Below are positions 2,757 to 21,262 of a DNA stretch of 33,473 nt, one piece after another; positions within the stretch are counted from its first letter, which is position 1, and every line of letters begins with the position of its first letter. A model generated the notes under the pieces. It had not been told where the DNA came from, searched no databases, and saw only the letters and a program-made list of their open reading frames with translations. This DNA is from Verrucomicrobiota bacterium (GTDB lineage Bacteria > Verrucomicrobiota > Verrucomicrobiia > Chthoniobacterales > UBA10450): the NCBI GenBank assembly GCA_003218535.1, contig QHNV01000049.1, positions 1-33,473 of the forward strand, given 5' to 3'. A program made the translations under genes and the position numbers.

Positions 2757-3632
2757 ATGTCTCGTAAATCTTACGGGTCATATTCAATGCGGCGCATATT
2801 TTTCATTGTTGGGCCCACCGCCTCCGGAAAGACCGAGTTGGCCGCTGATGTCGCTCAAGAGATCGGCGCCGAAATCGTAAGCGCTGACGCGTTTCAAATT
2901 TATCAGGGCCTCGATCTTCTGACGGCCAAGCCCGAAGCCGGGACGCTGCAGAAAGTGGCGCATCATCTCATTGGCGTAACGCCGCTTCACGAAGAAATGA
3001 ATGCTGAGAAATTTCGTCATACGGCCACGCGCGCCATCGATGAAATTCACTCGCGCGGCAAATTTGCCATCGTTGTGGGTGGAAGCGGGCTCTATGTCAA
3101 AGCACTCACTCATGGCCTGACATCTCTTCCAGAGTCGGACCCAAAACTGCGCCAAAAGCTGAATGCGATGAGCTTAAATGAATTGCGCTCGGAGCTCGTG
3201 CAGCTCGATCCCGAAGCGGCGCGCAAAATTGACACCAACAATCGGCGTCGCGTGTTACGAGCCCTGGAGATTTGCCTGGTAACCGGCAAGCGCGTATCTG
3301 CACAGCGCAAGCAATGGGCTGTAGCCGCCTCGCTGCGCGAGGCGCGCCGCGGCGTGATTGAAGAAGTGCGCGCCGCTACCGCGGTCAGTGCGACTGCTTC
3401 GCAGATGATCGGTTTACGTCAGATTCGCGACCTGCTCAGAGGCAAGATGTCGATCTTGCAATGCATCGGCGAAATTCAGCAAGCAACCCGGCGTTACGCC
3501 AAAAGACAGTTGACCTGGTTTCGTCACCAAAGTAATTTTGAGCCGCTTAATTTATCGCTTTTCAGTCACAACGAAGCTGTGAAATGGATCTCGCAAAGAG
3601 CGCGTCGCTCATTTGCGCTCAGGAATGATTGA
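2757..3632 (+). CDS. miaA: tRNA dimethylallyltransferase MiaA, with an internal repeat insertion/deletion
   Basis: Transfers dimethylallyl from DMAPP to N6 of A37 in tRNAs reading UNN codons; cytoplasmic. Visible: P-loop GPTASGKT, the ADAFQIY...LTAKP segment (usually DSRQVY...TAKP, so Ser is replaced by Ala), VGGSGLYVKAL, and the C-terminal ATRRYAKRQLTWFRH signature. ATG 2757 or ATG 2787 could start the protein; family alignment favours 2787, giving 281 aa. After TGKRVSAQRKQW the usual ~30-residue segment with the L-x-x-RI-x-x-RV motif is absent. In its place is AVAASLREARR, encoded by a GTAG-type hairpin (3321-3344), and the frame then resumes at RGVIEEVRA. The enzyme may therefore be impaired. 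It overlaps hflX by 8 bases. Confidence 0.88.
   Translation: MSRKSYGSYSMRRIFFIVGPTASGKTELAADVAQEIGAEIVSADAFQIYQGLDLLTAKPEAGTLQKVAHHLIGVTPLHEEMNAEKFRHTATRAIDEIHSRGKFAIVVGGSGLYVKALTHGLTSLPESDPKLRQKLNAMSLNELRSELVQLDPEAARKIDTNNRRRVLRALEICLVTGKRVSAQRKQWAVAASLREARRGVIEEVRAATAVSATASQMIGLRQIRDLLRGKMSILQCIGEIQQATRRYAKRQLTWFRHQSNFEPLNLSLFSHNEAVKWISQRARRSFALRND
3321..3344 (+). repeat. GTAG-type palindromic element inside miaA
   Basis: GTAG (3321-3324) is followed by CGCCTCG-CTGCG-CGAGGCG, a perfect 7-bp stem (3326-3344), and then by the short palindrome CGCCGCGGCG. It is read in frame and sits exactly where the MiaA family segment is missing. The GTAG-plus-hairpin layout matches the copies at 7990-8033 and, on the other strand, in rnpB. 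Confidence 0.6.
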
Positions 3633-4896
3633 AACTCGCCCGCACAAAACACAAGAGCGCGCACTCCTGATCGGCTTGGAAAAGCAAGGCGTCTCGAAAT
3701 GGGACTTGCGCGATTCGCTCGAAGAACTCGCTGAGCTTGCTAATTCCGCAGGCGCAGAAGTCGTCGATACCGTTACGCAAAAATTACCGAAGCCGACAGC
3801 ACCTTACTACATTGGCCGCGGAAAAGCTGAATCGATCAAGGACGCGTGTCAGAACCGGCGCGTGACGTCGATCATATTCGACGATGAACTCTCGCCAGCG
3901 CAGGGTCGGAATCTCGAGAATCTATTCGCGCGCAAGGTTCTCGACCGAACACAGTTGATTCTAGATATTTTCGCCCAACGAGCGCGCAGCCGAGAAGGCC
4001 GATTGCAAATCGAGCTGGCACAATTGCAGTATCTCCTGCCGCGCCTGACTCGGATGTGGCATCATTTGTCGCGGCAGACGGGCGGGATCGGCACGCGCGG
4101 TCCAGGTGAAACCCAATTGGAAGTTGACCGCCGCCGCGTGCAGGAGCGCATTGCACGGCTCGAGCGGGAGTTGGAAGGGGTACGTAAAACGCGCGCCATC
4201 CAACGACAGGGCCGCAAACGTCATCAATGGCCCGTCGCCGCGGTCGTTGGCTACACGAACGCAGGCAAATCGACACTGCTGAATTTACTCACCGGCGCCG
4301 ACGTCGTTGCCGCAGACAAACTTTTCGCTACACTCGATCCGACCACGCGCAGCTTCGTTTTGCCTAACAAGCAGCGCGTTTTGCTCACCGACACCGTAGG
4401 ATTTCTGCGCAAACTGCCGCACACCTTAATTGAATCGTTTAAGGCAACGCTCGAGGAAGTGAGCGAAGCCGACCTGCTCATTCACATTGCCGATCTGAGC
4501 CACCCGCGCGTGGACGAGCAGATGGAAGCGGTCGATACCGTGATCAAAGAACTGGACGCTTACGGGAAGCAAACGGTGATCGTGTTTAACAAGATTGATA
4601 ATCTGCCGAATCGCGAACTGGTTGACTCATATTTAAGGCGATTTCCGGCGAGCGTGGCGATTTCCGCGCGTACGGGAGAAGGAGTCAACAAGCTCGTGCA
4701 AGCTCTTGAACAGGCACTCAGTTCCTGGCGACTGCGCTCGCGTTTTCGTATTCCGTCCGAGGAATCTGCATTGATCGCGGAGATTCATCGCGTCGGTCAC
4801 GTGCTCGAGCTGCGGTACGAAGGTAATGACGCTGTGATCGTCGCGCACGTGCCTGCCGATCTGGCGCAAAAGCTGGAACGCCACGCCATGGCGTAG
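3625..4896 (+). CDS. hflX: GTPase HflX
   Basis: A ribosome-associated GTPase that splits stalled or stressed 70S ribosomes. The N-terminal HflX domain (ERALLIGLE..., about residues 10-110) is followed by the glycine-rich linker GGIGTRGPGETQLEVDRR and a coiled-coil helix, then the G domain: G1 GYTNAGKST (209-217), G3 DTVGF (256-260), G4 NKID (322-325). GFLRKLPHTLIESFKATLEE is the family hallmark. About 424 aa, normal length. A TTG at 3613 could add four residues; I chose ATG 3625, which has AGGA just before it and overlaps the miaA stop by 8 bases, implying translational coupling. In E. coli hfq lies between miaA and hflX; here the two genes abut. Confidence 0.95.
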   Translation: MIETRPHKTQERALLIGLEKQGVSKWDLRDSLEELAELANSAGAEVVDTVTQKLPKPTAPYYIGRGKAESIKDACQNRRVTSIIFDDELSPAQGRNLENLFARKVLDRTQLILDIFAQRARSREGRLQIELAQLQYLLPRLTRMWHHLSRQTGGIGTRGPGETQLEVDRRRVQERIARLERELEGVRKTRAIQRQGRKRHQWPVAAVVGYTNAGKSTLLNLLTGADVVAADKLFATLDPTTRSFVLPNKQRVLLTDTVGFLRKLPHTLIESFKATLEEVSEADLLIHIADLSHPRVDEQMEAVDTVIKELDAYGKQTVIVFNKIDNLPNRELVDSYLRRFPASVAISARTGEGVNKLVQALEQALSSWRLRSRFRIPSEESALIAEIHRVGHVLELRYEGNDAVIVAHVPADLAQKLERHAMA

Positions 4897-20793: not shown

Positions 20794-21262
20794 TCGATGG
20801 CGATAAGCCGAATTCTGTCGGCGTGATTGCTCACGCGGATGATCATTTATCTTCCAGCCCCAGTTTTTCTGGCCAGCTCTAACCAGCTCGCTGCCTTTCA
20901 GAAAAACTGGAGCTGGACGGGCCTTTTGCGTCGGCGGTCACAGACCGCCGCTACAATTTCGACCGCGTGCGACGATACCCGAGGATCTTGATCGGGCCGG
21001 CTGCCCTTCCTCTGTTTTGTCTTGCACCGCATGGGGTTTTTCCTGCCTCGCGAATTACTTCGCGAGCGGTGAGCTCTTACCTCGCCTTTTCACCCTTGCC
21101 TGCGCTTCTTTCAAAGAACCGGCGGTGTCTTTTCTGTGACACTCTCCGTCAACGTCGGCTTTCGCGGACGTCGCCCGCGTATTTTACGCGGCATGCTGCC
21201 GTATGGTGTTCGGACTTTCCTCCAGCGAATCTTGCGATTCACCAGCGATCATCTGCCATCGA
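20794..21262 (-). ncRNA. rnpB: RNase P RNA (RNA subunit of ribonuclease P), enlarged
   Basis: The ribozyme that removes the 5' leader of pre-tRNAs. On the minus strand the universal core is clear: GAGGAAAGTCCG near the 5' end, AGTGTCACAGAAAAGACACCGCC, GGCAAGGGTGAAAAGG with GGTAAGAGCTCACC, AAACCCC with GTGCAAGAC, AGATAAATGATC, and the 3' ACAGAATTCGGCTTAT. TCGATGGC at the 5' end pairs with GCCATCGA at the 3' end (helix P1), which sets both ends. P4 has changed on both strands relative to the usual CCGGG/CCCGG: here CCGAA pairs with TTCGG. At about 469 nt it is longer than typical. Two extra helices lie before AGATAAATG: a GTAG-type repeat hairpin (20932-20954) and an 18-bp hairpin (20854-20871 with 20899-20916). 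All ORFs drawn over it are spurious. TTAGAT just upstream (21269-21274) could be the -10 box. Confidence 0.95.
20932..20954 (-). repeat. GTAG-type palindromic element inserted in rnpB
   Basis: Read in RNA sense: GTAG, then CGGCGGTC-TGT-GACCGCCG, a perfect 8-bp stem. The GTAG-plus-hairpin form equals that of the elements in miaA and after nth. It lies in a variable part of RNase P RNA, between the P15-P17-like region and the conserved AGATAAATG. Confidence 0.7.

Follow-up and report, generated by a model that had tools for sequence, protein, structure and literature searches.

The miaA gene of the verrucomicrobial genome studied here (positions 2757–3632, + strand) encodes a tRNA dimethylallyltransferase of 291 residues with an internal in-frame deletion, which runs from a palindromic GTAG-type REP element in a loop of the protein into the active site. 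Positions are those of the window, i.e. the whole stretch of 33,473 nucleotides that was analyzed (contig C93 of a 2.69 Mb draft assembly in 269 contigs, 90% complete). Comparison of related gene sequences establishes the in-frame insertion of a REP dimer into the MiaA loop as the first of two events; the second would be a later deletion that removed half of the dimer together with neighboring coding sequence. To the whole account, including the loss of DMAPP binding and a recent origin of the lesion, we assign a probability of about 0.58.

The miaA gene of the window

The window protein scores 202.6 bits against TIGR00174, above the curated cut-off of 148.65, and 208.8 bits against the Pfam IPPT domain (PF01715). 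The IPPT match is split into two pieces (model positions 1–144 and 178–243), such that ~33 positions (145–177) are absent and the domain is incomplete; this bears out the sequence-only reading, which had proposed that a conserved MiaA segment with an L-x-x-RI-x-x-RV motif is missing. The protein shares with other MiaA enzymes the P-loop, the catalytic aspartate, the tRNA-binding residues and the C-terminal RRYAKRQLTWF motif (conserved residues kept include D44, H69, R165, and R168), but lacks the β-strand and helix that carry Arg213 and Arg217 in Escherichia coli MiaA, the Arg217 equivalent lying in an Lxx-RI-xx-R(V/F) helix. In a 36-protein alignment, columns R267, L270, R273, R277, and M281 are near-invariant, with gaps in the window protein alone. 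On sequence grounds, 2757–3632 is a MiaA gene by descent, the function of which is doubtful.

Between RKQW and GVIEEVRA, the gene encodes the peptide AVAASLREARR (residues A188–R198, positions 3318–3350, + strand) with the reading frame kept. The 3′ neighbor hflX (3613–4896, + strand), identified from the ORF list and by tblastn in relatives, overlaps the end of miaA; the miaA-hflX order is conserved in the genus, and the HflX proteins adjoining miaA in relatives are ~92–94% identical. A second miaA was not found, there being a single IPPT locus across the whole draft assembly.

GTAG-type elements and the MiaA loop in relatives

The DNA encoding most of the peptide is a single hairpin, GTAGCCGCCTCGC TGC GCGAGGCG (3321–3344, + strand), in which GTAG is followed by a 9-bp stem with a 3-nt loop, as fits a GTAG-type REP; it corresponds to the left half of an inverted REP dimer present in congeners. 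The folding energy of the hairpin is unremarkable (z = −0.54), and as this measure is uninformative in this GC-rich sequence, copy number was used instead. The 24-base hairpin core occurs at 26 places in its own genome with three or fewer mismatches, whereas a reversed control pattern occurs at none. Repeat count and translation thus confirm the earlier proposal that AVAASLREARR derives in frame from a GTAG-type hairpin. After most genomic copies comes a further hairpin in inverted orientation, which ends ...GGCTACAG, so that the two form a REP dimer. Profile searches gave six Y1_Tnp/RAYT (PF01797) matches in the genome; at two loci (L068 and L069) GTAG hairpins of opposite orientation lie close to a transposase match, and at a third (L066) a unit of the same family lies ~1.2 kb from one.

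Other elements were observed in the same genome. In the window, another lone GTAG hairpin (TGTAGCGGCGGTCTGTGACCGCCG) lies between ORFs at 20865–20955 (− strand), and an inverted-repeat stretch at 1690–1820 (GTCATTCCGAGCCGCGAAGACGGCGAGGGACC ... GATCCTTCGCTTCGCTCGGGATGACC), 3′ of a sulfotransferase-like ORF, has the look of a further palindromic element of the dispersed kind. A heptosyltransferase-like protein encoded next to dnaN (L038; source assembly G000, contig C12:54694–55632, − strand) has an end, ...AVAASLCEA*, that is supplied in frame by the same GTAG element. A DR2241/Fer4_23 protein (L056:854–1594, + strand) has the GTAG element within its Fer4_23 match (112 residues for 80 model positions), likely another in-frame insertion.

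The miaA region was compared in 28 relatives, of which 22 belong to this genus. The conserved strand-helix segment is kept in all 28, which makes its loss specific to this genome and excludes the possibility, raised with the sequence-only reading, that the short segment is a normal family variant; no relative offers a supporting case, and we give that explanation practically no weight. A broader sample of 195 genomes from the phylum gave a MiaA match in 193, and at least among the matches listed all run from model positions 1–9 to 242–243. G168 and G205 gave no MiaA match at all; G168, from the same class and assembled as a single contig (100% complete), appears complete and its genus-mates have a MiaA, making it a candidate for a clean natural MiaA loss.

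Five congeners (L004, L005, L006, L007, and L010) carry this element at the codon where it stands in the window, but as a complete REP dimer (~80 bp, inverted, in frame) and with the segment intact. The layout is GTAGCCGCCTC(G/C)C...GCGAGGCG, a spacer, and the inverted partner CGCTTCGCA(C/G)AGCGAAGC(G/A)GCTACA, followed by the segment; a 34-nt run identical between the window and L005 reaches into the element (ACAGCGCAAGCAATGGGCTGTAGCCGCCTCGCTG). The coexistence of full element and intact segment in five species implies that the insertion is old and tolerated. Most other relatives, including the sister species G007, have a different GTAG element at the loop (GTAGCCGGGGTCGGTGACCCCGG...GGGATCAACGATCCCGGCTACAG in most, encoding the peptide VVAGVGDPGxPGSTIPAT). 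Two members of other genera of the family (L026 and L027) have no element, the N-terminal part leading through a short spacer to the GV(F/C) strand. L009, the sister of the full-element L010, retains a remnant only, with a deletion confined to the element, which indicates that the element does shed pieces. In three further sequences (L020, L017, and L015, the miaA genes of G018, G017, and G034) a second, GCTAAAGCTACGGCGGACA-like repeat is nested inside the GTAG element of the loop, encoding the peptide SAKATADKP or its reverse strand.

On the MiaA tree the types of element are intermixed, the window (type A) grouping with L012 (type B), and L004 (A) with L018 (B). Parsimony requires seven changes of type, compared with a mean of 9.7 when labels are shuffled; repeated insertion and recombination between species are both possible at this loop.

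In-frame GTAG REPs are known from other proteins. They often occur as dimers encoding 20–30 residues, are most numerous in the Verrucomicrobium Opitutus terrae, and have hosts in other species that include tRNA pseudouridine synthase genes (PMC3733652). The miaA element resembles them in its GTAG end, short stem-loop and in-frame inverted dimers, as well as in its verrucomicrobial host with RAYT genes in the genome, but differs in that the host gene is miaA, that one loop holds different GTAG elements across a genus, and that half of the dimer is gone with neighboring coding sequence. Rickettsia palindromic elements, the classic parallel, likewise place an in-frame palindrome, encoding a tolerated peptide, in housekeeping enzymes (PMC10969869). 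These are, however, ~150 bp long and belong to other sequence families and another phylum; the miaA element is set apart by its GTAG type, and the notable loss here arises from a later deletion and not from the insertion. The open-licence literature yielded no report of a GTAG REP in miaA or in this genus/Udaeobacter. New are the repeated use of one MiaA loop as a REP site within a genus and a deletion that extends from a REP into the active site.

Putative deletion and its predicted effect on the enzyme

The first event, established by the comparison with relatives, is the insertion of a GTAG-type REP dimer, made up of two hairpins in inverted orientation and stop-free in frame, between the ...GKxxSxQRxQW and GVFVFRDREELYxRINxRVEAMF segments of MiaA, where it encodes a ~26-residue, low-confidence loop tolerated in several species of this Candidatus Udaeobacter-like genus. 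Since congeners hold element and segment together, the insertion is older than the loss, and the loss is a separate, second event. The element did not, as the sequence-only reading had supposed, replace the segment.

Relative to L005, ~41 codons between GV(M/T) and GVI are absent from the window, comprising the right half of the dimer and ~25 residues of conserved protein. We infer an in-frame deletion of ~123 bp, joining the element interior to codon GVI at CGCCGC|GGCGTGATT (3345–3359, + strand); the exact breakpoint is estimated from comparison with L005 and L007. A short GGYGTNAT similarity is seen at both edges of the lost stretch, as read from congeners only ~80% alike in DNA. Replication slippage between such short direct repeats, helped by the hairpins, is a probable route for the deletion, in line with the polymerase slippage at a hairpin between short direct repeats shown in vitro (PMC4134008). 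The event would have removed the right REP, one core β-strand and the helix that bears the donor-binding arginine.

In E. coli MiaA, Arg217 binds DMAPP (PMC8234997). It aligns with R223 of L005, which is nearly invariant and lies in the lost helix. Structure models, one of the checks proposed with the sequence-only reading, agree with the alignment. The AlphaFold model of L005 MiaA (pLDDT 90.5, pTM 0.83) has strand 205–210, helix 213–229, and a C-terminal strand 293–297, whereas in that of the window protein (pLDDT 86.1, pTM 0.72) all three are missing, including the further C-terminal strand beyond the lost segment, and pLDDT falls below 50 over residues 185–198, i.e. across the junction and the whole element-encoded peptide. 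The L005 element peptide is modeled as a low-confidence loop, as fits a tolerated insertion. Among structures available for comparison in the TIGR00174 class (2zm5, 3foz, 3crm, and 3exa), E. coli MiaA 2zm5 gave a TM score of 0.85 with the L005 model and 0.72 with the window model (normalized by target). AlphaFold is no stability assay, and the models support inactivity without proving it. The window MiaA is probably inactive, unless the assembly is wrong here. The protein would still be made but would not properly bind DMAPP, leaving A37 without i6A in tRNAs that read UNN codons. Loss of i6A37 is a likely consequence of the deletion.

Decay in the rest of miaA was sought by branch length and dN/dS and was not found. 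Outside the gap, the window branch length is 0.140 versus 0.145 for the sister, and pairwise dN/dS of the window gene is 0.13 to L012 and 0.10 to L005, against 0.13 between intact genes. This implies that the lesion is recent, that the protein is still constrained, or that the assembly is wrong here.

An independent sign of lost i6A was not found, the search for miaB having met a contig end. Most members of the genus have a true MiaB, or fragments of one, but none was found in the G000 assembly, where its expected place is just beyond the end of a contig; judged by score and by its start (MISLGCAKNLVD), the match at C123 in G000 resembles RimO. Contig C6 of G000 is colinear with the miaB region of its closest relative, G007, and stops ~4 kb short of miaB, with the neighboring genes missing too. 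An assembly gap therefore accounts for the absence, which gives no evidence of pathway loss. On contig C12 of G000 the heptosyltransferase gene is followed by pepF and not by miaB, but a reading of this junction as the scar of a lost miaB was rejected, given that G007 shares this gene order and has its miaB at another locus. Of the two options in the sequence-only reading, silent loss of i6A37 is the better, although the miaB test proposed for it, once run, proved uninformative. In two congeners (G009:C210 and G017:C68), miaB is split over two adjacent reading frames, possibly through a frameshift or assembly error.

Alternative explanations and significance

The deletion is known from one draft assembly of the species, in which a genuine loss and an error of assembly are indistinguishable. 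The true gene may hold the full REP dimer and the segment, the assembler having skipped ~123 bp flanked by hairpins or short repeats, or recorded a minority strain variant. The draft is fragmented and incomplete, the group is known from metagenomes, the break adjoins a hairpin with 26 relatives in the genome, and the rest of the protein is normally constrained, the last point also counting against the two-event account in that a long-dead gene would not be so well kept. However, just ~8 bases of direct repeat are present at the junction, well under usual k-mer sizes; miaA's own sequence stands on both sides in the right order, followed by hflX, so that a chimera with another copy of the element is excluded; and the frame is kept, for which the chance is one in three. 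An artefact or minority variant is, overall, unlikely, albeit the weightiest of the alternatives.

A deletion that is real could also be tolerated, the short enzyme working with another arginine, or with the element peptide replacing the lost strand and helix. The kept frame, the other retained conserved positions and the unaccelerated window branch are consistent with this, but the DMAPP-binding arginine helix is lost together with a core strand, in the model one more strand is gone and confidence drops at the junction, and no such MiaA occurs in the 28 relatives or among the phylum matches listed; we consider tolerance improbable. The comparison with Rickettsia palindromic elements in the sequence-only reading holds for the in-frame insertion of a palindrome, but not for a replacement, and tolerance of the shortened form is unlikely, given the missing Arg217 equivalent and core strands. 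Very improbable, too, is a single event in which one REP monomer took the place of the segment. One complete REP hairpin is indeed what remains, and at this site another GTAG element is present in the sister species G007, but L005, with its 34-nt identity and the same codon and frame, has both dimer and segment, and a shared insertion is simpler.

We return to the two-event account, an in-frame dimer followed by a deletion. A wider proposal, in which the loop is a genus-wide, standing site of landing and exchange for GTAG palindromes of at least two types and a palindrome-driven, fixed deletion has ended i6A37 formation here, is put forward tentatively, as a possibility that we favor less than the account for the window gene itself. 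MiaA is close to universal, and its loss alters the decoding of UNN codons. If real, the deletion would be an instance of i6A37 lost in nature, within an uncultured soil group, and a clear two-step case in which an in-frame palindrome escaped notice in a disordered loop before making its host gene prone to deletion; a repeat harmless in a housekeeping enzyme would later have destroyed that enzyme. Should the deletion prove an artefact, the different GTAG elements in the MiaA loop across the genus would still provide a good natural series on the gain, exchange and loss of in-frame REPs.
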